The notes beneath the pieces were generated by a model. The model was not told the DNA's origin. It ran no database searches and worked only from the letters and a program-made list of their open reading frames with translations. Of a stretch of 64,000 bases of DNA, positions 4,036 through 16,418 are shown one piece after another. Source of the stretch: Okeanomitos corallinicola TIOX110 (lineage in GTDB: Bacteria > Cyanobacteriota > Cyanobacteriia > Cyanobacteriales > Nostocaceae). Location: contig NZ_CP150886.1 in assembly GCF_038050375.1 (NCBI RefSeq), positions 372,001 through 436,000 on the forward strand, given 5' to 3'. Both the position numbers and the translations under genes were made by a program. The first letter of the stretch is position 1. Each line of letters opens with the position of its first letter.

Positions 4036-5223
4036 ATGGTATCTGCTCAACCAGGAATGCCAAGTACCCAAAATCAAGCTAAGATTCAAAATAGACAAAA
4101 ATCCTATTTCATGAATATGACATCAACAGTTACTAACGAGTCTCAAACCATGCAAGCTCCAAAACAAGGATTACCAGTAACAATTATTACAGGGTTCTTG
4201 GGCAGTGGAAAAACAACTTTACTCAATCATATTTTAACTAATCAGCAAGGCGTAAAAACCGCTGTTTTAGTGAACGAATTTGGCGAGATTGGCATTGATA
4301 ACGAATTAATTGTATCCACCAATGATAATATGGTGGAACTTAGCAATGGTTGTATTTGTTGCACCATTAATAATGACTTAGTTGATGCAGTTTACCAAGT
4401 TTTAGAAAGGGAAGAAAAGCTAGATTATCTAGTTGTAGAAACCACAGGATTAGCAGATCCTTTACCCGTAGCAATGACATTTTTGGGATCTGAACTGCGA
4501 GATTTAACCAGATTAGATTCCATTGTTACCGTAGTAGATGCAGCAAATTATAGTTTAGACTTATTTAACTCTCAAGCTGCACTTAGTCAAATTACTTATG
4601 GTGATGTAATTCTACTGAATAAAACTGATTTAGTTGATGAAATCACTTTAACAGCATTAGAGAAAAAGATTAATGATGTTAAAGAAGGTTCAAGAATCAT
4701 CAGAACTAAAAACTCTCAAGTTCCACTGCCTTTAATTCTCAGTGTGGGTTTATTTGAATCTGATCAATATTTTGATTCAGAAGAACATGAACATGAACAT
4801 CATGATCATTCTACCTGTGAACATGATCACCATGACCATGACCATTCTACCTGCGGACATGATCATCATGACCATGAACATGACCACCATTCAGATCACT
4901 TAGAAAATGATGGTTTTATTTCTATTTCTTTCCAAAGTGATAAACCTTTCTCTATCCGTAAATTTCAATATTTCTTAGACAACCAACTACCCACAAATGT
5001 CTTCCGTGCTAAGGGTATTATGTGGTTTGAAGAAAGTCCCCAACGTCATATTTTCCATCTGTGCGGTAAACGCTTCACCATTGATGATGATCAGTGGAAA
5101 GGTGAAAAGAAAAACCAAATTGTTTTAATTGGTCAAAATTTAGATCAAGAAGCTTTACTTCAACAATTAGAAAATTGTCTTTGTTTACCTTCAGTTAGTA
5201 AAGGTAAAGGGTTTGGGAAATAA
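4036..5223 (+). CDS. COG0523 (CobW/ZNG-like) metal chaperone GTPase with His-rich segment
   Basis: G3E-family GTPase. P-loop GFLGSGKTT (about 53-61), the metal-binding CICC motif (106-109), NKTD (195-198) and the C-terminal CobW domain are all present. Residues about 250-288 are a His/Asp/Glu-rich stretch with repeated STCEHDHHDHDH-like units, expected to bind zinc, cobalt or nickel. The first about 45 residues look unlike the family; the ATGs at 4111 or 4117 are plausible alternative starts. Zinc-responsive members often have a Zur operator, but I could not see a convincing one upstream. Metal identity is not decidable from sequence. Confidence 0.9.
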   Translation: MVSAQPGMPSTQNQAKIQNRQKSYFMNMTSTVTNESQTMQAPKQGLPVTIITGFLGSGKTTLLNHILTNQQGVKTAVLVNEFGEIGIDNELIVSTNDNMVELSNGCICCTINNDLVDAVYQVLEREEKLDYLVVETTGLADPLPVAMTFLGSELRDLTRLDSIVTVVDAANYSLDLFNSQAALSQITYGDVILLNKTDLVDEITLTALEKKINDVKEGSRIIRTKNSQVPLPLILSVGLFESDQYFDSEEHEHEHHDHSTCEHDHHDHDHSTCGHDHHDHEHDHHSDHLENDGFISISFQSDKPFSIRKFQYFLDNQLPTNVFRAKGIMWFEESPQRHIFHLCGKRFTIDDDQWKGEKKNQIVLIGQNLDQEALLQQLENCLCLPSVSKGKGFGK

Positions 5224-5251
5224 TTATTAGTCATTAGTCATTAGTCATTAA
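5224..5251 (+). repeat. Short tandem repeat (TTAGTCA)n
   Basis: Heptamer repeats of the TTAGTCA type directly follow the COG0523 stop codon. Similar ATTAGTCATTGG-type runs appear after clpS (about 43575-43612) and after the IscA-like gene (about 25110-25140). Confidence 0.6.
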
Positions 5252-5296
5252 TTATATGACTTTTGACTCCTAACTTATTACTAAAAAATATTGAAA

Positions 5297-5643
5297 ATGC
5301 CGATAATTAGGGCTTGCTGAATAAATCTCAAAACATTACAGGTAAACGATTTTAGCGATTTTGACTTTCAAAAAATGCAAGCTTTGATGAGGTGAGAACT
5401 GAAAAACCTTGCATTTAATTCCTGCTTCAAGGAAAAATAGTTCCCATCCAACTCTTGAAACTGTCACCTGTCACCTGTCACCTGTCACCTGTCTCCACGA
5501 CAAGACTTTATCAGCAAACCCTAATTATTCAACGAGTCAAATCATCTCAAGTAACTGTAAATGGCGAAATTATCGGTAAAATTGGACAGGGATTAAATTT
5601 ACTTGTTGGTATTGCCGAGGATGATACTGAGACCGAGTTATAC
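5297..5643 (+). pseudogene. dtd: dtd (D-aminoacyl-tRNA deacylase) split by a small element and 3'-truncated
   Basis: Removing 5310-5527 joins ATG CCG ATA ATT A to TT CAA CGA and restores an in-frame N-terminus reading [19 protein letters not shown], the characteristic start of D-aminoacyl-tRNA deacylase. It continues as [23 protein letters not shown] to about 5643. The remaining two-thirds of the roughly 150-residue enzyme, including the C-terminal GPVT motif, is absent, so the gene is dead twice: by insertion at codon 5 and by loss of the 3' part. The enzyme normally hydrolyses D-aminoacyl-tRNAs; another copy or another deacylase would have to serve this function. Confidence 0.85.
5304..5527. 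mobile_element. 212-bp MITE-like element inside dtd, with 6-bp target duplication
   Basis: Element 5310-5521 has imperfect terminal inverted repeats: GGGCTTGCTGAATAAA at the left against TTTATCAGCAAACCC at the right. It is flanked by TAATTA at 5304-5309 and 5522-5527. No transposase gene is inside, so movement would need a transposase in trans. Near its right end it contains a tandem array of the heptamer CCTGTCA (about 5459-5493). The exact restoration of dtd on excision is strong evidence for these boundaries. Confidence 0.8.
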
Positions 5644-5694
5644 CAATTTAATATGAAGCTGCATAGAAAAGAGCTTCTAGAATAAAGTTATAAA

Positions 5695-5830
5695 AAGTTA
5701 TAAGATGAGATAGATATCACCTCGTCAAATGTAAGTTGCTCGAATAATTGTTGTATGCGATTGCGTAAATATTGCAAAGAAGATAAAAGTTCATTTTTTC
5801 GTATTGTTTAGGGTTTTTTTCCAGCGATTC
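5695..5830 (-). pseudogene. Possible transposase C-terminal remnant
   Basis: Read on the minus strand, about 5810 to 5700 encodes a protein-like stretch including ELLSSLQYLRNRIQQLF and EQLTFDEVIS before a stop. Leucine-rich helical ends of this kind occur at the C-terminus of some cyanobacterial DDE transposases (IS630-type is my guess). It follows the point where dtd homology stops, so it may be what is left of the element that removed the dtd 3' end. Identification is tentative. Confidence 0.3.
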
Positions 5831-6114
5831 TCTCAAATCAAAGCCTCTTGACAAGAGACTTACATCCTTAACTTGTCACCAATGGGATTAAATCATCTTA
5901 TTAGCGCGATGAATGGATTTAACCCCTTTTATTCTTCTGGATAATATTAGTTCATTTACTACTTACTTAATCCCGAAGGTAACAGAACAGGGATAGGGAT
6001 AGTGTTCACCTTTGGGTATTTTAATGTTGGCTGTCACTATGGCGTTAATAATTTTCTCATGTTTTATATCATTTCACAGCATATATTATATCTTTTGAAA
6101 ACTTGCTATGGGGA

Positions 6115-6205
6115 GATGACTATAAACAAGAATAGATTTAATTTTATATTGGTGTGTCGAATAACTGCTTTCTATGGAGGTTTAGCAGAGCTAAACCTTT
6201 TTTTT
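6115..6205 (+). ncRNA. Candidate small RNA, array unit A
   Basis: A short AT-rich unit ends in a strong intrinsic terminator: stem GGTTTAGC/GCTAAACC (6179-6197), loop AGA, then eight T (6198-6205). Upstream, a GGGAGATGACTATAAAC segment resembles the same position in units C and D. Exact 5' end unknown; no convincing ORF. The repeated arrangement, not this unit alone, suggests an RNA gene. Confidence 0.45.
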
Positions 6206-6329
6206 ATTCAATATGTTAGATATTACTCTCCTAAACCATAAAAATATCATTTAACTCTCCTTGAGGTAGTAGAAATTTCCATTTATAGAAATTAAGATTA
6301 ATGTATTAATGCCTGAAAAACGTGTAATT

Positions 6330-6358
6330 GCCCTGGAATTATATTCAGGGCTTTTTTT
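6330..6358 (+). terminator. Intrinsic terminator, array unit B
   Basis: Stem GCCCTG/CAGGGC around the loop GAATTATATT, followed by seven T. It lies between units A and C with no coding region before it, so it probably ends a further short transcript, although the upstream part does not show the GATGA-type block of units A, C and D. Confidence 0.65.
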
Positions 6359-6529
6359 ATTAACAATCTCATATCATCTAGAAATATCATCTAGAAACTG
6401 CGGTTGATTATTTTTTTGCCTGATTACCAATATTTGCACCAAAAGGGTTTTACCGCTAATCATTCATAGCTGCTTTACATAATGAGAATCCGATTCAATA
6501 GCAGTTTTTCTAAATTTTGTACTCACCTA

Positions 6530-6625
6530 ATAGAGAGATGAACGAGAATCAAATATAGTTTAAATTAGTTATATATGGTAAACACCTGGTATATATAGAG
6601 GCTTGGCTTTAGTCCAAGCCTTTTT
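6530..6625 (+). ncRNA. Candidate small RNA, array unit C
   Basis: Contains AGAGAGATGAACGAGAAT, then about 60 AT-rich bases, then a terminator with stem GGCTTGG/CCAAGCC (6600-6620) and five T. Relative to unit D the third stem base pair changes from T-A to C-G on both sides, a compensatory change consistent with selection on RNA structure. Confidence 0.45.
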
Positions 6626-6729
6626 CATGCTCAAGATAGAAGCCTATAGATTTTTATACTTTTGAATAAACCAGACTAGAAGATATTAATAAAATAACGC
6701 CATATCAGTAATCAAGGCATTTGCATATA

Positions 6730-6832
6730 TCCCATAGGAAGATGATTCATAAGCAAACAAGAATTAAATTAATTTAGTACGTTGTTAAGCACAGCAATTT
6801 TAGAGGTTTGGTTAACAGCCAAACCCTTTTTT
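6730..6832 (+). ncRNA. Candidate small RNA, array unit D, adjoining the agmatinase gene
   Basis: Contains CATAGGAAGATGATTCATAAG, resembling unit A, and ends in stem GGTTTGG/CCAAACC (6805-6825) followed by six T. The terminator ends 35 bases before the start codon of the ureohydrolase gene, so it could equally be a leader attenuator for that gene. No known riboswitch consensus was recognised. Confidence 0.45.
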
Positions 6833-6867
6833 GATGTTAATATTGCTATAAATCCAGGATAAATCAA

Positions 6868-7908
6868 ATGATTAATCAAATTTCAGACTACAATCCTAGT
6901 GGCATAGGCGAAGTTAATGGTAATCTTTGGGGACTACCGAAAAACTATGAAACTGCTAATTTAATTATTTTTTCTGTTCCTTGGGAAGTTACTGTTTCCT
7001 ATGGTGCAGGAACAGCTAATGCACCACAAAAAATTTTAGATGCGTCCTATCAAATAGACATCTTTGATTTCGATAACCCTAATGGTTGGAAACAAGGAAT
7101 TTACTTTGCAGAAATACCAGAAGATATATTAGATAAAAATAACTACTATCGTCAACAAGCTGCTAAAATTATCACTAGACAAGAAGAAGGTAAACCATTA
7201 ACAAATACACCAGATTTAACACCTATACTCACAGAAATTAATCAAGCTGGTGAACAGGTAAATCAATGGTTATTTCATCAGTGTCAACAAGCAATGAATC
7301 AAGGTAAAAAAGTTGCTGTAATTGGTGGTGATCATAGTTCACCTTTAGGTTATTTTCAAGCTTTAGCTAGTCAATATGCTGATTTTGGCATTTTACATAT
7401 TGATGCACACGCAGATTTACGCGATGCTTACGAAGGATTTGAATTTTCCCATGCGTCTATTATGTTTAATGCTTTGAAAATACCACAAATTTCTAAGTTA
7501 GTTCAAGTGGGTTTACGGGATATTTGTATTGATGAAGTGGAAATTATTAATAACTCTCAAGGTCGGGTAATTGCTTACTATGATACAATGATAAAACAAC
7601 AAAAATATGCTGGTAAAAATTGGTTAGATTTATGTCAGGAAATCATCTCTAATTTACCAGAGAATGTACATATCAGTTTTGATGTAGATGGTTTAGATCC
7701 TAAACTATGTCCAAATACGGGAACACCTGTTCCGGGAGGATTGGAATTAGAGCAAGTTTATTGTTTATTTCGGGAAGTTGTGAAGAGTGGCAAAAAAATT
7801 ATTGGGTTTGATATTTGTGAAGTTGGTGATGCTGAATGGGATGCTAATGTTGGTTCGAGAATAGCTTATAAGTTAGCTAATTTTTTGGATTTATCCCAAA
7901 AGAAATAA
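6868..7908 (+). CDS. speB: Agmatinase-family ureohydrolase
   Basis: 346 residues, arginase/agmatinase fold with the binuclear metal motifs GGDHSSP (H156), DAHADLRD (D179, H181, D183) and SFDVDGLDP (D272, D274). The family hydrolyses guanidino compounds (agmatine to putrescine, or arginine, or guanidine) with release of urea. The N-terminal about 130 residues, with SYGAGTANAP, match the longer cyanobacterial type. Cyanobacteria have both agmatinases and a nickel-dependent guanidine hydrolase in this family, so the substrate is open; agmatinase is my first choice. The gene stands alone and is preceded by the hairpin array. Confidence 0.82.
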   Translation: MINQISDYNPSGIGEVNGNLWGLPKNYETANLIIFSVPWEVTVSYGAGTANAPQKILDASYQIDIFDFDNPNGWKQGIYFAEIPEDILDKNNYYRQQAAKIITRQEEGKPLTNTPDLTPILTEINQAGEQVNQWLFHQCQQAMNQGKKVAVIGGDHSSPLGYFQALASQYADFGILHIDAHADLRDAYEGFEFSHASIMFNALKIPQISKLVQVGLRDICIDEVEIINNSQGRVIAYYDTMIKQQKYAGKNWLDLCQEIISNLPENVHISFDVDGLDPKLCPNTGTPVPGGLELEQVYCLFREVVKSGKKIIGFDICEVGDAEWDANVGSRIAYKLANFLDLSQKK

Positions 7909-8224
7909 GAATTTTTTTGTCATCATCAAATTCTACAGCAGCTTTTAGCTAACAGCAGTCAGCATTAAAACTCCTTAAATAGTGACAAGGTTTTTGATGT
8001 CAATTTTGTATCTTATGCAAGTACATACCGCTATAAACCTGACAAGTTGTCACAAACAACAACATCGCCGACTCCACCTATTCCTTCGGAACGCTACGCG
8101 AACGTGGACTAATGAAAAATCAAGGCTTCTGAACGCACAAATGTGGGTTTTGTCTGTGTAGCCGCGATTTATAACTGCCCAGAGAGTTATGAATTTAGAC
8201 TTTTCAAACATCCTCTTAGCAAAA
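7909..8224. other. Intergenic region with interspersed palindromic repeat
   Basis: Convergent region between the ureohydrolase gene and the CHAT gene. About 8085-8107 contains CCTTCGGAACGCTACGCGAA, a short palindrome of a kind scattered in Nostocales genomes, followed to about 8200 by sequence that also looks like a dispersed repeat rather than a gene. No coding region supported. Confidence 0.5.
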
Positions 8225-10672
8225 TCAATTTCCCTTATACACAAACTCATACTTACCCACCCTTTCCGCATCGGGTTGTACTTGCACCAAAACTGCATCA
8301 CCAACCCTATCACCCATCCTATCACCATAATGTAAAAACTTAACTGTCCCCGTCGCACCAGAAAACACAAAATTACGACTTAAAACATCTTGAATATCTT
8401 TCCTTTTACTCCCCTTTTTCTCGATAGCATCAGCAATGATTTTAGTCGCATCAAAAGCTGTCGCTGTTCTCCAAGTAATTAAACTGGAATTTCGCCAAAT
8501 TCTATTTGCATTTTCTACAAACTTTTGATTAGGTGAAACAGCAGCTTGCCAAGGAACTGCCATAATCATTCCATTCACAAAACTACCAGATTCTAAGGTT
8601 TTTTGAGTGTGTAAACTAGGATTTCCCAATAGTGAAATTTCACCTTTATTGGCTTTACCAATATCAAAAGCTTTATTAATTCTATCAACTTGAGGATTTA
8701 ATAAAATTGCATCTACTTTTTTCTCTATAGCTTGTTTAACAATCTCTGTACTTTGAAAATTACTATCCGCAAAATCACAATTAATATCATTCATAAATTT
8801 AATACCTTTGCTTGTCATCGCATTGGTAAAAGATATTTCAAAAGACTGGTCAGCAGCTTTAGTATCACTACAAATTAAAATATTATTTTTTTCAGCTTTT
8901 TTAGCATATTCCACCAAATTTTCCGCAATCACAGCAAAGCTAATTACACTTCTATAAATATAATTACCATCAGTTTTATTATTACCGTGAGTTAATTGAA
9001 TTGAGGTACTTGTGGGGGAAATCATCACTAATTTCCCAGCTTGATAAATATTCGACGCAGGTACACTAGCATCACTACTATTATGACCAACTACAGCTAA
9101 AATATCCCGACTTTCTACAAATCTACTAGCGATTTTTTTAGCAATTTTTGGTTGGTTATCATCGTTAGCAATTTGGATTTTTAAAAACTTTTCCCCTATA
9201 CCACCGTCATTATTTATTTCCTGTTGTGCTTGTGCAACTCCCCGTAAAATTTCTAAAGCAACATTAGGATTACTACCCGTAGGTACAGCTACACCTATTT
9301 TTACTGATGGTTGATTTTTAATTTTGGCATTTTCTAAATATATTCTTGCTTCTGCATCATGGGGATAATCTTTTAAATAATCTGTAAAATGTTTAATTGC
9401 TAATTGATGTTTTTTCCACCATAATGCTTTAACTCCTGCTTCTTTATCGAAATCAACATCAGAATCAATTAAAACTTTTTCACCTTCACTAAAACGTTGT
9501 CTAAACTTAAATTCCTCTAGACAATAACCAAAAATAATCATCAATAAAAATATCAAACCTGTCATCATTGATGACTTAAAGATTATTTTATGAACATAAC
9601 GATATTTAGGATATTTCAAAACTGATGCGGCAGGATTTTGGAAAATTACAGGTATCCAAGAAGCACAGGGATATTCTGTTTCTAACTCTTCCTGTAAACG
9701 CACACGGGAATGTTGTACAGAAGTATATAAAGATTCCCCAGATGCAAAAAAGGTGAGAAAATACCTTAAAAAAGATTGTGCCACAATATCAGGTACAGGT
9801 TCACGCATAACAATCATATAAGGGATGCGTAAATCTGATAAATTATGGGCTAAACCCAACCCATCACAGGAATTAAAAATTGCTAATTTTAAACCTTTTT
9901 GGACTGCATATTTTAAAGAATGACGTAAATCAGAAATGGGTAAAGTTTGTTTTTCATTAATTTGAATTTCTCCCAAACTTCCATCTGCTTGACTGCTACT
10001 ATGTCCAGCAAAAAATAGAATATCCCAGGATTGATGCCATAATTTATCTAATAAATCTTCTCTTGATGGTTGTAGTAAAGGTTCAATAATTGCATCTGGT
10101 AATTTTTCCATTAATGAGTGGAAGTCAGATTCAATATTAATATCTTTGTTATTACCAAAAATAGCCAGAATTTTGACAGGACTTTTTAATTTAACTTTGT
10201 CCGGTTTATATTCTGAACTAATGACAACTTCTGGTTTAATATGGTGATCATCAAACACTTCCCATAAATGCCAAGGTAACTTTCTTAATAAAGGATCTTG
10301 TGTTTGTAAAATACACCGCACATTCTCCCATTCACCTATTTTTCTTAAAAATTGTCTTTCTAATTTTCTTACCGATTTTTGATTTAACCAATTATTAAAA
10401 CTTGTGAGAAATTTGTTAGCAGCTTGATGGCAAATTTCTGAAGTAGAGACGTTAGTAATTTGTGCATCAGGAACAGTAATTAACCAATTTCCTGGTAATT
10501 TATTATATGCTGATTGCCATTGATAATAAACTTGGGGAAGTTCGGGGAATGCTGGTAAATTACCATTAATTTCTGCAAAGTGTAGTTTACCTTCTTCCCC
10601 AATTCTGATTTTAACAGGAAATCCTTGTTCAAAATTTCCTTCTCCAATCTCAAATATTACCCGTTTACCCAC
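8225..10672 (-). CDS. CHAT protease - transmembrane - periplasmic-binding-protein sensor fusion
   Basis: 815 residues in three parts. Residues about 100-350 are a CHAT (caspase-like) peptidase with the catalytic pair in FFAGHSS (H224) and FNSCDG (C269). A single membrane segment (about 369-387) follows, then a short helical linker and, from about 456, a type I periplasmic-binding-protein domain of the branched-chain amino-acid receptor type (VKIGVAVPTGSNPN, INNDGGIGEKFLKIQI, ISPTSTS). With one membrane span the protease should be cytoplasmic and the sensor periplasmic. It is the last gene of a minus-strand cluster, 23 bp after the DUF1822 gene. I infer ligand-controlled proteolysis; ligand and substrate are unknown. 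Confidence 0.88.
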   Translation of the reverse strand: MGKRVIFEIGEGNFEQGFPVKIRIGEEGKLHFAEINGNLPAFPELPQVYYQWQSAYNKLPGNWLITVPDAQITNVSTSEICHQAANKFLTSFNNWLNQKSVRKLERQFLRKIGEWENVRCILQTQDPLLRKLPWHLWEVFDDHHIKPEVVISSEYKPDKVKLKSPVKILAIFGNNKDINIESDFHSLMEKLPDAIIEPLLQPSREDLLDKLWHQSWDILFFAGHSSSQADGSLGEIQINEKQTLPISDLRHSLKYAVQKGLKLAIFNSCDGLGLAHNLSDLRIPYMIVMREPVPDIVAQSFLRYFLTFFASGESLYTSVQHSRVRLQEELETEYPCASWIPVIFQNPAASVLKYPKYRYVHKIIFKSSMMTGLIFLLMIIFGYCLEEFKFRQRFSEGEKVLIDSDVDFDKEAGVKALWWKKHQLAIKHFTDYLKDYPHDAEARIYLENAKIKNQPSVKIGVAVPTGSNPNVALEILRGVAQAQQEINNDGGIGEKFLKIQIANDDNQPKIAKKIASRFVESRDILAVVGHNSSDASVPASNIYQAGKLVMISPTSTSIQLTHGNNKTDGNYIYRSVISFAVIAENLVEYAKKAEKNNILICSDTKAADQSFEISFTNAMTSKGIKFMNDINCDFADSNFQSTEIVKQAIEKKVDAILLNPQVDRINKAFDIGKANKGEISLLGNPSLHTQKTLESGSFVNGMIMAVPWQAAVSPNQKFVENANRIWRNSSLITWRTATAFDATKIIADAIEKKGSKRKDIQDVLSRNFVFSGATGTVKFLHYGDRMGDRVGDAVLVQVQPDAERVGKYEFVYKGN

Positions 10673-10695
10673 TGTAATTACCTTAATTTATCTAC

Positions 10696-11835
10696 TTAAA
10701 TGATAAATTTTTCTGTTATGCTAACATCACCTATTTTAACCATAACTTGAAATTTTTCGTTGATTTCTGCACAAAACTTTAACTGAATATAATTATCTTT
10801 TGCTTCTCTTGCTTCAGCTTCTAAAAATGTTTCTCCATTTTCATATAGTCCTAATAATTGCAATCCAGTAGGTAAATATTTTTTATTCCCCATCGGATAT
10901 ACTTTCAATAAAATCGAAAAAGTTTGATTTTTAGTAGGTACAAAAGCAAGCATTAACGCAACTGCATTTCCTCCTAACCACATTCCTAAGTCCATAATTC
11001 TTCTAGCAGCAATAAGAGGATGTTGAGGTGCTATTTCCCATAGTATTTCTGCTACAGTCCAGCGCATTTCTTCATCTGATTCATTCTGCAATAAATAAGC
11101 AAGAGTGTCTGTTAAGAAAATATCTGAATTTGGATCAGAATTAATTCGATTCAATAATTGTGATGGCAGTATTGCTGATAATCTTTTCTGTGGATATAAT
11201 TGTTTAATAGTCTGCCAAACTTCTTGATTACTATCAATTTCTAATCCTCTCAGTGTGAAAGAACGAAATACGACATCTCTATGTTGGTATTTACTAAATT
11301 CTTCAATACTTTGCCATTTAGATGTATAGATCCCTTCCAACCATTGGCGCAATTTGACTAAAGAATGTTGATGATAATATTCTATAAAATCATCAAGTGT
11401 TTGTAATTCTTCTAAATTTATTTCTTGACTGTTAAGCTGTGGTAAAAATCCTCTCAGTTTAGCTTCTTGACAAGTGTAATTTATTTCTACAAACAAATAA
11501 CCAAACTGATTTGTTTGTACTTCCCCAGGAACATAAAAATATAAATCCCCTGTTCTGATATATCTACATTCTAAATTTCCAATTCCTGGTAATACTAAAT
11601 CTGCTGTATCTGCTAGTGTTCTAACCCAGTCATCCCAACTATGACTAGCTTCTAAAGCAGTAGGAATATCTAACATTTGCAAGTAATTATTAACTACTTG
11701 TACTGCTAAAGTATTCAGATAAACTTGTTTAGCTTTTGGTTTATTTGGTTGTTCCTGGGCAAATTTTAAAGCTGTATCTCGAAATTTGGCAGGAATGGGA
11801 ATAGAGATGTATTGTTTTTCGTTATCGTAGTTCAT
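10696..11835 (-). CDS. DUF1822 family protein
   Basis: 379 residues, no signal peptide or membrane segment. The N-terminus (ISIPIPAKFRDTALKFA, then VYLNTLAVQVVNNYL) fits the cyanobacterial DUF1822 family. A middle region has Trp-rich motifs and the C-terminal third is beta-rich (LKVYPMGNKKYLPTGLQL). It lies 30 bp after the sigma-like gene and 23 bp before the CHAT gene, so co-transcription is likely. Function unknown. From its position between a sigma factor and a protease it could be a regulator or protease substrate, which is inference only. Confidence 0.8.
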   Translation of the reverse strand: MNYDNEKQYISIPIPAKFRDTALKFAQEQPNKPKAKQVYLNTLAVQVVNNYLQMLDIPTALEASHSWDDWVRTLADTADLVLPGIGNLECRYIRTGDLYFYVPGEVQTNQFGYLFVEINYTCQEAKLRGFLPQLNSQEINLEELQTLDDFIEYYHQHSLVKLRQWLEGIYTSKWQSIEEFSKYQHRDVVFRSFTLRGLEIDSNQEVWQTIKQLYPQKRLSAILPSQLLNRINSDPNSDIFLTDTLAYLLQNESDEEMRWTVAEILWEIAPQHPLIAARRIMDLGMWLGGNAVALMLAFVPTKNQTFSILLKVYPMGNKKYLPTGLQLLGLYENGETFLEAEAREAKDNYIQLKFCAEINEKFQVMVKIGDVSITEKFII

Positions 11836-11865
11836 AATTCACTCAATATCAAACTAAATTTTAAC

Positions 11866-12531
11866 CTAAATATCAAAGTAACCTTCGTTATCAAAATACT
11901 CCTGAGATTTACCAAAATTGAGCAGCAGAGGAAAACATTGACGTTGATAAAAATTACTCAGAGTAGCGATAGGAATATCAAACTCTGTAGATAAATCAGA
12001 CCAAGATGTTTCCGGTGGTAAACGCCGAGAAATTAACACGTAACAGTTAATATCTGGACGATTTCTAATATGAATACGTTTGAGTTTTTGGTAGTTTGTT
12101 TTTAACCATTCTTCAATTTCATCTAATATTAGTCTTGGTTGTGCAGGTGCAGGAATTAAATCTGTGGGATCTATTTCTTTTTCATCCTTTTCAAAAGGTG
12201 TTGTAAATTGATTCTGTTGTTCATAAAATCTAATTTGTTTATCCTTTAAACGGTAGCGAAGATAGTTGTTTATCCAAGTAAAAATACTACTTTTTTCAGG
12301 ATTAAAAGGTTCTTTTGCGGTAGTTGCTTCACAAAGATTTCTGCAAAAATACCACCAGGTTTCTTGTAATGCTTCTTCTGCATCAGGAATACCCCAACCT
12401 CGAAGTAATTTACCCGTACTTTGAATTAGCATAATTAGTTTGTTTAACCCCTTTTGTCTTTCTGAGCTACCGCTAGGATATTGACAAATTTCTTGAATTA
12501 GTTGGATGATTTTTGCTTCTATTTCAGTCAT
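11866..12531 (-). CDS. Sigma-70-like (ECF-type) RNA polymerase sigma factor
   Basis: 221 residues. A region-2-like segment is seen around 45-105 (DAEEALQETWWYFCRNL, then FTWINNYLRYRLKDK) and a region-4-like helix-turn-helix near 170-205 (SWSDLSTEFDIPIATLSNFY). This layout matches short cyanobacterial sigma-70-related proteins found next to DUF1822 and CHAT genes. It starts 5 bp after the stop of the DUF2207-like gene and precedes the DUF1822 gene by 30 bp. The two regions are weakly conserved, so promoter specificity and even sigma activity are inferred. Confidence 0.75.
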   Translation of the reverse strand: MTEIEAKIIQLIQEICQYPSGSSERQKGLNKLIMLIQSTGKLLRGWGIPDAEEALQETWWYFCRNLCEATTAKEPFNPEKSSIFTWINNYLRYRLKDKQIRFYEQQNQFTTPFEKDEKEIDPTDLIPAPAQPRLILDEIEEWLKTNYQKLKRIHIRNRPDINCYVLISRRLPPETSWSDLSTEFDIPIATLSNFYQRQCFPLLLNFGKSQEYFDNEGYFDI

Positions 12532-12536
12532 GCTTA

Positions 12537-13307
12537 TTATGATTGATTTTTCAGTAGTTTACTCCTGATTATAAAGATTATGATACCTAATAGCAAAAAG
12601 ATAAAGGGTAGAAACAATATTATTTTTTTAAGAATTTCTCTTTGCCAATTAGATTCAGGTATGTTAAGCACATCTTTGGGAAATGTGACTTGAACTTCTA
12701 ACTCTTGTTCTGGTACAACAGGCTGATTCGCTATAAACTCAAAGGCTGTGGGATTGATTTGACGCGATTTAGCTGATACTCCAAAACTCCTAAAATCCAC
12801 AACTTTACCTGCTAATGCTTCCGGTAAGTTTACTCTTACTTTTGCATTTTGAATAGGTGCTGTGCGTTTAGCAAAAATAGCTTTCCAATAAACTAGAGTA
12901 TTTTTATTTTTGGTATGTAATCCACCGATTACACGATAGTTGATCAAAAAAGTATGTGATTCTGGTGCTTTGAGTGGATGTTGCCAACGAATCCAAATGT
13001 AATTGTTTTTAATTCCTGTGGTACTAGGAATAACCTGATTATTTTCCGTGACTGTAATATCTTTGATTTCATCTACTTTATGTAAACGAATATAGCGATA
13101 TCTTTGTTGAGAATATTGAGAAGTAAAAACATATTTTTGTTCTTCAGTTACTAGCATATCGCCATTATTCTGCACATCAATATTTACATTTACATAGTCC
13201 CAATAAAAGGAATTTTGCTGTGCTAATGCTGGAGAAAATGCAACTAGAATTGCCACTAAGATAGTGATTAATGAAAACAAGATTTTTCTGGTTCTTAGTT
13301 TATTCAT
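12537..13307 (-). CDS. DUF2207-like secreted/membrane protein
   Basis: 256 residues: an N-terminal signal peptide (LFSLITILVAILVAFSPALA), an extracytoplasmic beta-rich domain (YWDYVNVNIDVQNNGDMLVTEE and IRWQHPLKAPESHTFLINYR resemble DUF2207) and one C-terminal membrane segment (about 228-248) with a short basic tail. Full-length DUF2207 proteins are usually about 500-600 residues with several membrane spans; this is a short form. Function unknown. It sits 5 bp upstream of the sigma-like gene in the same direction. Confidence 0.65.
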   Translation of the reverse strand: MNKLRTRKILFSLITILVAILVAFSPALAQQNSFYWDYVNVNIDVQNNGDMLVTEEQKYVFTSQYSQQRYRYIRLHKVDEIKDITVTENNQVIPSTTGIKNNYIWIRWQHPLKAPESHTFLINYRVIGGLHTKNKNTLVYWKAIFAKRTAPIQNAKVRVNLPEALAGKVVDFRSFGVSAKSRQINPTAFEFIANQPVVPEQELEVQVTFPKDVLNIPESNWQREILKKIILFLPFIFLLLGIIIFIIRSKLLKNQS

Positions 13308-13354
13308 GGTTAAAAATCATTGATTTTTACAAAAGACTGAAGAGAAAAAATATT

Positions 13355-13445
13355 AGGACTGACGCAAAATATATCTAAAAATCTCCTTTCTCTGCAAACT
13401 CTGCGCCTCTGCGGTTCATTTATTTTTTAATTATGCGTAAGTCCT
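13355..13445. mobile_element. 91-bp MITE-like repeat with inverted ends
   Basis: Ends AGGACTGACGCA (13355-13366) and TGCGTAAGTCCT (13434-13445) are inverted repeats with one mismatch. The interior includes CTCTGCGCCTCTGCGGTTCA, a sequence common in dispersed cyanobacterial repeats. It lies between the Gly/Cys-tailed gene and the DUF2207-like gene and could separate them transcriptionally. No obvious target duplication. Confidence 0.6.
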
Positions 13446-13484
13446 AAACATAAAAATGTCTAATCATAATTTAGAGAAAATTGA

Positions 13485-14309
13485 TCAACCACCACCACCG
13501 CAGCCACCACCACCACCACCGCAGCCACCACCACCACCACCGCAGCCACCACCACCACCACCGCAGCCACCACCACCACCGCAGCCACCTCCACCACCTC
13601 CACCGCTACCTCCACCACCTCCACGAGATGCAAGTTTTATTAATAAAATTACTCCCAGGAAAAATAAAATAACTGGCATTGCGGAAGTTGAAGAATTTTG
13701 AGAATTGCTGTTATTTGATGCTAAGACAATTTGAGAATTAGTAATTATTAATGTGAAGCTAAATAGCAATCCTAAATAAAACTTCTGAGGAATTAAAGCT
13801 GGAATATTGATATGAAGAAATTTAAAGTTTGGTTTAGGAATAACCCAATTATTATTGATATCTACTCTCCGAAAATTGCTTTTAACATCAAAGGGAATAT
13901 TAGGTTTTGTCCAAATATCTGAAGGAGGATTTTCTCCAAAAAATTGTTGATAACTGGCTAGAGTATGCAAATACAAATTATCAAATTTATCTGTTTCTTG
14001 ATTTCCACCACGACTAGGAAAATGATGTAATTTCATACCCAATATTTGACAAAATTCTTGCCAATAAGATTGGGTATATGTTAAATGTAAATGCCAAACT
14101 TGATCTATTGTATCTGATGGTGATACTGAATTTCCTGTCACGGCAGCAATGAAGGCGAATTTTTTATATTCATCAATTGCACGTTGAGTATATTCAGGTG
14201 TCCAGTTGTTTTCTTTTGCTAATTTTTTACTAAAGGAAAAACAGGAGTTTTTTTCATCTAAAGAAAATTCTTGGATACGTTGATATAATTCCGCTTGTTG
14301 AAGATTCAT
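13485..14309 (-). CDS. Membrane protein with long Gly/Cys-repeat tail
   Basis: 274 residues. The N-terminal domain (about 1-130) contains DTIDQVWHLHLTYTQSYW, resembling the His/Trp motif of glycine-rich-domain proteins (PF07173-like; tentative). One membrane segment (about 178-195) follows, a second hydrophobic segment (PVILFFLGVILLIKLAS), and then an extreme tail of Gly runs broken by Cys about every 7 residues, ending at the stop codon at 13485-13487. The tail is encoded by a 21-bp DNA repeat; the proline-rich reading on the opposite strand is its shadow. Tails like this occur on bacterial membrane proteins near DUF2207 genes, and the neighbour here is DUF2207-like. Function unknown. Confidence 0.7.
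   Translation of the reverse strand: MNLQQAELYQRIQEFSLDEKNSCFSFSKKLAKENNWTPEYTQRAIDEYKKFAFIAAVTGNSVSPSDTIDQVWHLHLTYTQSYWQEFCQILGMKLHHFPSRGGNQETDKFDNLYLHTLASYQQFFGENPPSDIWTKPNIPFDVKSNFRRVDINNNWVIPKPNFKFLHINIPALIPQKFYLGLLFSFTLIITNSQIVLASNNSNSQNSSTSAMPVILFFLGVILLIKLASRGGGGGSGGGGGGGCGGGGGCGGGGGGCGGGGGGCGGGGGGCGGGG
13488..13625 (-). repeat. 21-bp tandem repeat encoding GGGGGGC units
   Basis: Repeats of (CCACCACCACCACCACCGCAG) type on the plus strand, about four regular copies followed by degenerate ones. They encode the Gly/Cys tail on the minus strand. Near-identity at DNA level implies recent expansion or conversion; copy number may vary between strains. Confidence 0.85.
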
Positions 14310-14653
14310 AGATTTTAAAGATGTAATCTTAGTTCTATGGGTTCTTCTGTCAATGCAGAGCGGTGTTATCTAAATCTTTACATAACTTAATATTTTTGGG
14401 AAATATGAACATGAGAAAATATAAAGCACCCACTGGGGTATCAACTATTGCTGTATTCCTGGCAAATTAAAATATCAAACCTTGCTAATGATGATTGGTA
14501 TTTCTGCATTTATACTCATAGAACAATGGATTAAATATGGTCAACATAAATGCTTAGGATGAGATGATTAATCATCGAACTTTATGATATGATGATATTT
14601 TTATATATCGCCAATTTAATCATCTAAAAATTCATAAATCAGTCCATCTACTC

Positions 14654-14926
14654 CCTAGTTATTCTCATTTATAATAACGAAGAAAATATGAACTAAATCT
14701 AAAGTCGTTTAACTAAAGTTGATATTCCTGTATCTACAGGATATTTCTATTTAATGGATAGACAGGTAGTAAGTATTCTCACTGCTATGCCAAAATACAA
14801 TCGTTATATTCGGGGTTGATCTGCTTGGGTAGGTTTTGAACAAACATCTGTACTGTTTGAAATAAATCCCCGCTATGCTGGAGATGTAAAATATACGAAA
14901 GAAACTGGAAATTTAATAAAAAACTA
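14654..14926 (+). pseudogene. Degraded family 2 glycosyltransferase
   Basis: Two separated pieces of a GT2 enzyme are readable. About 14654-14695 gives LVILIYNNEENMN then a stop, matching the N-terminal VVIPxYNEExN motif. From about 14701 comes [19 protein letters not shown], then RYIRG, a TGA stop, and SAWVGFEQTSVLFEINPRYAG, the membrane-proximal region of dolichol-phosphate-mannose-synthase-like (GtrB-type) enzymes. The catalytic middle is deleted and an in-frame stop is present, so it is non-functional. Confidence 0.75.
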
Positions 14927-15506
14927 AAAAATTAATTTCCCCAAATTTGTTAAATTCTCAATAAATAGTTATTACTGTGTTCTTGAAGCGTATCTACCCT
15001 AACAAATCAACTAACCTTAATTATGGGAAACTATTTTTAGTTGTTTTAGTCTGTTTTCTTTAGATCCCAGTAAAAACAATATTGGTATCTAAAAAGCTTA
15101 ATTTTTATTTAATAACGAGGTGTAATCTTAGGCAATAAAATATACATTAAAGGTATTGATGCTGAATTAAATTTTATCACGCACCTTTGTTTTTCCTATC
15201 ATTGTACTTGGTAAATAAGTATAATTTTCTAACTAAAATGTGGAATTTATGTAATATTGTATCCATATTTTTATAGACATCAGTAAGCAGATGATCATCT
15301 AATTATCCAGAAAAAATTTTAGTGATCAGCTTGCTGCTAAAAACACATTCAGTCTAATTTGAAAGAGTTTAGTAGGACAATTGACATTCATCTGTTCAGG
15401 TTTTCAACTTCCTACTAACTTCTAAATGCTGAATACTAACAAAAAATGTGTTATAACCTACCGTCAGAAGCGTCATTGACGGTTCAACCCTTGAAGGAGT
15501 TATGCA
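14926..15506. other. AT-rich intergenic region upstream of the deacetylase
   Basis: About 580 bp between the glycosyltransferase relic and the deacetylase gene. No coding region recognised. An AAGGAG ribosome binding site at 15494-15499 serves the GTG at 15507. Confidence 0.5.
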
Positions 15507-16418
15507 GTGGAAAATAATAAGCTATTTTTGTGGCCACAGGGAATATTAATTATTTTACTGTGCCTAACTGGTACAGTAGGTATTGGTGCGATGATGCTAT
15601 TTAAGCCGAAAATATCAGAAGCTCAAAGCCAACAAAATATAGACATAAATAATATTACTGTTAGTGTAGGAACTCAGAAGCGTGTAGAGCAGTTTAAGGC
15701 GGCAATGCTCAATACTTGGCAGCAGGAAGCACAAGCAAAGGGTATCGTTGTTGATGTACCATCAAGGTTTCAAGGCGCAACAATTAAAACTGCTACCCTT
15801 CCTCCAGACAAAAAAGTAATTGCACTTACCTTTGATGATGGACCATGGCCAAAAAGTACAGCCCAAGTATTAGATATTCTTAAAAAAAATGATATCAAGG
15901 GTACATTTTTTGTAGTGGGTAGAAACGTCCAAAATTACCCAGACTTAACTAGGCAAATAGTAGCGGAAGGTCATTCTATTGCTAATCATACCTGGCATCA
16001 TTGGTATCATCACATGAATGCACAAACCGCAGCTTACGAAGTTGCTAATACTTCCGATATTATTCTCAAAACTACAGGGGTAAAAACGGGTTTATTTCGT
16101 CCACCAGGGGGAATAATGACCAATGGAGTTGTCAACTATGCACGTAATAATAAATATGCCGTTATTATGTGGTCTTCTGACTCTATAGATTATTCCCGTC
16201 CTGGTGTACCAAAATTAATCAATAATATTTTTAGATCAGCAAAACCGGGTGGTATTGTCTTAATGCACGACGGTGGAGGCGATCGCACCCGCACCGTTCA
16301 AGCTTTACCAGAAATTATCAGTAGGTTTCGCAAGCAAGGTTATGAGTTTGTCACTGTTCCAGAACTGCTAGAAATGCAAGACGAACATCAAGCCTCACTT
16401 GCAAAGAAGAAGGAGTAA
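15507..16418 (+). CDS. Membrane-anchored or secreted NodB-type polysaccharide deacetylase
   Basis: 303 residues. An N-terminal hydrophobic segment (about 11-32) acts as signal or anchor. The NodB homology domain (about 100-290) has the metal/catalytic motifs TFDDGP (D110, D111), HSIANHTWHH (H161, H164), RPPGG and VLMHDGGGDR. Such carbohydrate esterase 4 enzymes remove N- or O-acetyl groups from cell-wall or extracellular glycans. The GTG start is preferred because AAGGAG lies 7 bases upstream; the overlapping ATG at 15502 is in another frame. Substrate unknown. Confidence 0.9.
   Translation: MENNKLFLWPQGILIILLCLTGTVGIGAMMLFKPKISEAQSQQNIDINNITVSVGTQKRVEQFKAAMLNTWQQEAQAKGIVVDVPSRFQGATIKTATLPPDKKVIALTFDDGPWPKSTAQVLDILKKNDIKGTFFVVGRNVQNYPDLTRQIVAEGHSIANHTWHHWYHHMNAQTAAYEVANTSDIILKTTGVKTGLFRPPGGIMTNGVVNYARNNKYAVIMWSSDSIDYSRPGVPKLINNIFRSAKPGGIVLMHDGGGDRTRTVQALPEIISRFRKQGYEFVTVPELLEMQDEHQASLAKKKE

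Follow-up and report, generated by a model that had tools for sequence, protein, structure and literature searches.

In the RseA/DegS and RsiW systems, an envelope signal reaches a sigma factor via proteolysis, and the membrane protein there is the anti-sigma factor. A CHAT protease can also control a sigma factor, as proven for the TPR-CHAT protein Csx29, whose cleavage of Csx30 relieves the inhibition of CASP-sigma (PMC10028731). A third and closer system was described by Kaur, Iyer, Burroughs and Aravind (eLife 2021, PMC8195603), who found EACC2 proteins in which a constant EACC2 and caspase module is joined to a variable C-terminus, one form of which is an extracellular CHASE2 domain behind transmembrane helices. 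The majority of their TRADD-N-independent neighbourhoods also contain an ECF sigma factor and DUF1822, the latter labelled a TPR protein, and autopeptidase activation with a transcriptional output was proposed for these systems (PMC8195603).

The window analyzed here is a stretch of 64,000 nucleotides from the cyanobacterium Okeanomitos corallinicola TIOX110. On its minus strand, three genes lie head to tail: one for a sigma-70/ECF-like protein (positions 11866–12531, an ORF of 221 aa), one for a DUF1822 protein (10696–11835, 379 aa; PF08852, E 3e-74) and one for a protein of 815 aa (8225–10672) that carries both a CHAT and a Peripla_BP_6 domain. The gaps are 30 bp between the sigma-like and DUF1822 genes and 23 bp between the DUF1822 and CHAT genes. 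The original prediction had given this layout, and had placed an intact CHAT dyad, one membrane span and a type I periplasmic-binding-protein (PBP) domain in a single polypeptide; its gene coordinates and gaps match the ORFs exactly, the three parts of the polypeptide were all recovered, and the dyad is where it had been put. The EACC2-type domain, the TPR-like stalk and an adjoining DUF2207 gene, all described below, were absent from it. The CHAT-PBP gene starts with GTG at position 10672, a start codon that is supported by a Dolichospermum relative having ATG at the same residue.

The N-terminal 160 residues of the CHAT-PBP protein (10193–10672, minus strand) form an EACC2-type alpha+beta domain, conserved together with the CHAT domain in an alignment of 42 rows. 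Its EACC2 identity is assigned by position in the protein, and the module of residues 1–350 is conserved across 42–92 relatives. The CHAT protease domain follows at residues 161–350 (9623–10192, minus strand), with a Pfam CHAT match at residues 185–339 (E 2e-9). The catalytic histidine H224 in a GH motif (codon 10001–10003) and the catalytic cysteine C269 in an NSC motif (codon 9866–9868) are unchanged in all 92 relatives compared, which indicates that the protease is under selection. When residues 1–354 were modeled from two sequences, the result was poor overall (pLDDT 53), with residues from about 160 to 335 mostly at 60–88; a Foldseek search with the CHAT model gave the SAVED-CHAT filament 8tl0 as best match (E 4e-7), followed by the caspase Dronc. 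A CHAT fold resembling SAVED-CHAT and caspases is thus predicted from the model. The EACC2-CHAT profile had no match in the PDB. CHAT domains occur at about 24 places in this genome, and a local expansion of seven CHAT-domain matches within 30 kb was seen at 1447–1476 kb of contig C1.

The other half of the protein has the parts of a receptor. A hydropathy scan found one hydrophobic span at residues 363–381 (9530–9586, minus strand), with basic residues just before it. Between the membrane and the PBP domain lies a TPR-like stalk at about residues 390–455 (9308–9505, minus strand), conserved in the alignment. The type I PBP domain, of the branched-chain amino-acid binding type, takes up residues 456–799 (8276–9307, minus strand) and matches Peripla_BP_6 with E 4e-25 over model positions 1–339 of 343, the length of the fold. 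Searched against the PDB, the PBP family profile found 4mlc (E 7e-39) and LIV-binding proteins (about E 1e-25). Nearly all of the CHAT-PBP proteins scanned have one span, a single protein having none above threshold, and in most members the positive charge is higher on the CHAT side of the span. Three genomes encode CHAT proteins of 1234–1250 aa (L150–L152, in G540, G518 and G557, respectively), which are long enough to accommodate a second PBP copy and still have one span; a second PBP match was found in the long protein of G518.

The receptor end is an exchangeable part. Among 74 C-termini we counted CHASE2 in 36, Peripla_BP_6 in 29, TPR in about seven and WD40/nSTAND1 in two, the Peripla_BP_6 share being enriched because these proteins were searched for by choice; in a sample centred on DUF1822, CHASE2 was again the commonest (33) and PBP was found in eight. 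On a quick tree of the CHAT module with many open forks, the PBP label needs five changes, three of them forced by starred branches, and all labels together need 13. Receptors have thus been exchanged while the protease stayed, and such swapping points to the C-terminus as the input. A paralogue of the receptor half (38%) also exists in the same genome as a separate protein of span, stalk and PBP, in which Pfam TPR is matched. Its gene (L040:5598–7004, contig C1 near 1.88 Mb) follows, at a distance of 55 bp, a Ser/Thr kinase-like gene (L040:4109–5542) named from sequence motifs. The original prediction of a ligand outside the membrane controlling a protease inside therefore gains support from the exchange of receptors on a constant protease, from the single predicted span and from the basic residues on the protease side; the topology itself, with the PBP domain outside and the protease in the cytoplasm, is a predicted one.

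The fused CHAT-PBP form is widespread, with at least 49 of the 391 genomes of the order, in nine families, containing it by hand count of a whole-protein search. In 20 further CHAT-PBP regions, the order of sigma, DUF1822 and CHAT-PBP was found in nearly all that were long enough to tell, and in some regions the place of the sigma gene is taken by a longer one of about 490 aa that has no label. Four loci have two to four tandem CHAT-PBP genes behind one DUF1822 gene. A clear exception comes from the window genome's own family, in which Dolichospermum sp. ST_sed8 has an intact CHAT-PBP gene with no adjoining sigma or DUF1822 gene, and no remnants of either were found upstream of it; the protease may therefore have other substrates. 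A second sigma-DUF1822-CHAT cassette, with a CHAT protein of 1582 aa, is located at 2581–2585 kb of contig C1 in the O. corallinicola genome.

Upstream of the sigma gene, the window has a DUF2207 membrane protein gene (12537–13307, minus strand, 256 aa) that ends 5 bp from it, and beyond it a Gly-rich gene of 274 aa, the two together covering 12537–14309 on the minus strand. DUF2207 is also found upstream of the cassette in genomes G064, G534 and G553, and in G534 and G553 it is accompanied by a gene close in size to the Gly-rich one (275–277 aa). We considered DUF2207 as a general fourth member and rejected it, as most cassettes lack it and it is also encoded away from any cassette. The DUF2207 and Gly-rich genes are probably an independent unit, a neighbour of the cassette and not part of it. 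No conserved promoter or DNA block was found 5′ of the sigma gene when the upstream DNA of seven relatives was aligned.

The pairing of DUF1822 with a sigma-like gene extends beyond the PBP version. A match to PF08852 was found in 164 of the 244 phylum genomes, many of the matches, in one distant family, being weak; in that family, with genomes of about 2 Mb, most of the sampled genomes that matched carry a single, weak hit to DUF1822 (E about 1e-4 to 1e-17). We inspected 105 DUF1822 neighbourhoods, consisting of 100 fetched regions plus the second copy of the own genome and representing the strongest listed hits in a non-random draw. A sigma-like gene lies directly upstream on the same strand in 85–90 of them, the lower figure counting two clusters with sigma-family matches and the higher including also a cluster of five, the representative of which matches no Pfam sigma family. 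The gap between the two genes has a median of 24.5 bp. Directly downstream of DUF1822 is an EACC2-CHAT gene in 62 of the 105 and another CHAT gene in four; DUF928, which is not in the window, is found downstream in 27. The three-gene order thus recurs in many genomes. Rare adjacency and a dyad not conserved among orthologues were two of the three conditions named as refuting the original prediction, and it passed both checks. Among the 43 neighbourhoods in which no EACC2-CHAT gene adjoins DUF1822, 39 still have a sigma gene beside it (a count that includes the five-member upstream cluster), a pattern suggesting that DUF1822 is the sigma factor's partner and that CHAT was added as an input.

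What the two partners are is less evident from their own sequences. The sigma-like protein of the window has no significant family match, its TIGR02937 hit (E 0.07) being below significance. Among 29 relatives, 13 match TIGR02937 (best E 4e-10) and five match Sigma70_r4_2. The sigma assignment therefore rests on the family, the window protein itself being divergent. For DUF1822, a profile search of the PDB gave chance hits with E values up to 10 and no significant similarity, no TPR family was among the matches of 29 relatives, and no membrane span was predicted. A single-chain AlphaFold model of sigma and DUF1822, made with no alignment, had a mean pLDDT of 38 and a pTM of 0.24 and was set aside as uninformative. 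The three cassette proteins have correlated pairwise distances (r 0.55–0.69), a result that does not discriminate contact from co-inheritance and could reflect plain vertical inheritance. An insert in DUF1822 with the motif RWxxAExLW was found in 20 of 28 PBP cassettes, the type to which the window protein (10696–11835) belongs, and in none of 39 CHASE2 cassettes. It was rejected as a receptor-linked feature: it seems to track lineage, since several of the PBP cassettes without it branch elsewhere in the CHAT tree.

From these observations we propose a mechanism for the cassette. The PBP domain would bind a small ligand in the periplasm, probably an amino-acid-like compound, and the signal, relayed by the TPR-like stalk and the one span, would alter the EACC2-CHAT protease in the cytoplasm. 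This enzyme would then act on the sigma-DUF1822 pair encoded just upstream, where DUF1822 would most likely be cut as the sigma factor's inhibitory partner, and the freed sigma factor would reprogram transcription. The gene unit is real and conserved, and the mechanism is plausible. In its general form, that a sensor-controlled CHAT protease feeds into a sigma factor, we consider the proposal probable. The whole account, in which one protein serves as receptor and protease and is linked to a sigma factor by cleavage of DUF1822, is advanced tentatively and with slightly less than even confidence. That DUF1822 is the cleaved inhibitor is a possibility about which we are somewhat doubtful; it is drawn by analogy with Csx30, the inhibitor of CASP-sigma that is cut by Csx29, and for DUF1822 as an anti-sigma factor gene order alone speaks. 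The most specific version is more speculative still: a caspase-like protease receptor in which an extracellular small molecule may directly switch CHAT, cutting DUF1822 and freeing a dedicated sigma factor, with the receptor as a plug-in that is exchanged with CHASE2 and also found beside a Ser/Thr kinase.

The strongest alternative is that the stimulated CHAT domain cleaves the chain to which it belongs, or an adjacent subunit of an oligomer, and frees the cytoplasmic module, so that DUF1822 and the sigma factor would respond to the freed module and not to a cleavage of their own. Self-processing is what was proposed for EACC2 proteins (PMC8195603), and the link between EACC2 and CHAT is evidently dispensable, since the two are encoded by separate adjacent genes in three genomes (EACC2 of 163–166 aa and CHAT-PBP of 663–684 aa; L161, L162 and L172, in G475, G487 and G493, respectively). 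The proven sigma-linked CHAT example, however, cuts a separate protein, and we regard self-processing as unlikely, if worth keeping in mind. The cassette could instead be a module for defence or cell death, in which a danger signal triggers CHAT as a toxic effector and the sigma factor does no more than turn the cassette on. EACC2 proteins have been placed among conflict systems (PMC8195603), and nSTAND1 and WD40 domains occur in some relatives, but PADLOC had no match for any of the proteins, the EACC2-CHAT profile found no relative in viral contigs, and the receptor ends are mostly CHASE2 or PBP, which are small-molecule sensors; we consider this reading improbable. Least probable of all, and in our view very much so, is that CHAT cuts the sigma-like protein itself or that this protein is an adaptor no longer working with RNA polymerase, for although it is very divergent, and its profile match to the other sigma factors of the genome is weak and short (27 columns), almost half of the family can still be recognized as sigma factors and region 4 is found in several members.

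To our knowledge, the abundant CHAT domains of cyanobacteria are mostly without known inputs or substrates. A sensor-controlled CHAT protease acting on a sigma factor, as we propose, would have its input, protease and likely target in one expressible operon-like unit, and signaling from a bacterial caspase-like protease to transcription could therefore be tested directly in a setting other than CRISPR. The receptor swaps seen in nature further suggest that a ligand could be read out through transcription with chimeras.

The proposed cassette shares with RseA/DegS and RsiW the use of regulated proteolysis to link an envelope signal to a sigma factor. It differs from them in that the proteases are unrelated and the protease and receptor are one protein, with DUF1822 having no predicted span. 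HetF is likewise a cyanobacterial CHAT protein, and a weak local match to its NCBIfam model (E 3e-4) covers 90 residues (186–275) that hold H224 and C269, yet the match scores 19 against a cut-off of 1200. The original prediction that no characterized system has this architecture was too strong, given the cassette type predicted by Kaur et al. (PMC8195603) and the proven Csx29/Csx30 switch (PMC10028731). Like the window cassette, the latter encodes together a CHAT protease with a His-Cys dyad, a sigma factor and a third protein; its input, in contrast, is RNA through Cas7-11 and not the extracellular ligand proposed here, and no type III-E Cas7-11 effector is among the ORFs listed at window positions 4036–16418. 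The EACC2-caspase system is closer, sharing the N-terminal alpha+beta and caspase-type module, the variable C-terminus and the sigma and DUF1822 neighbours. It differs in the TPR label given to DUF1822, which none of the 29 relatives bears out, and in that its main text, figures aside, mentions no PBP receptor (PMC8195603). The cassette type is therefore one that was already predicted in 2021, and the version with a PBP receptor is a widespread variant of it.
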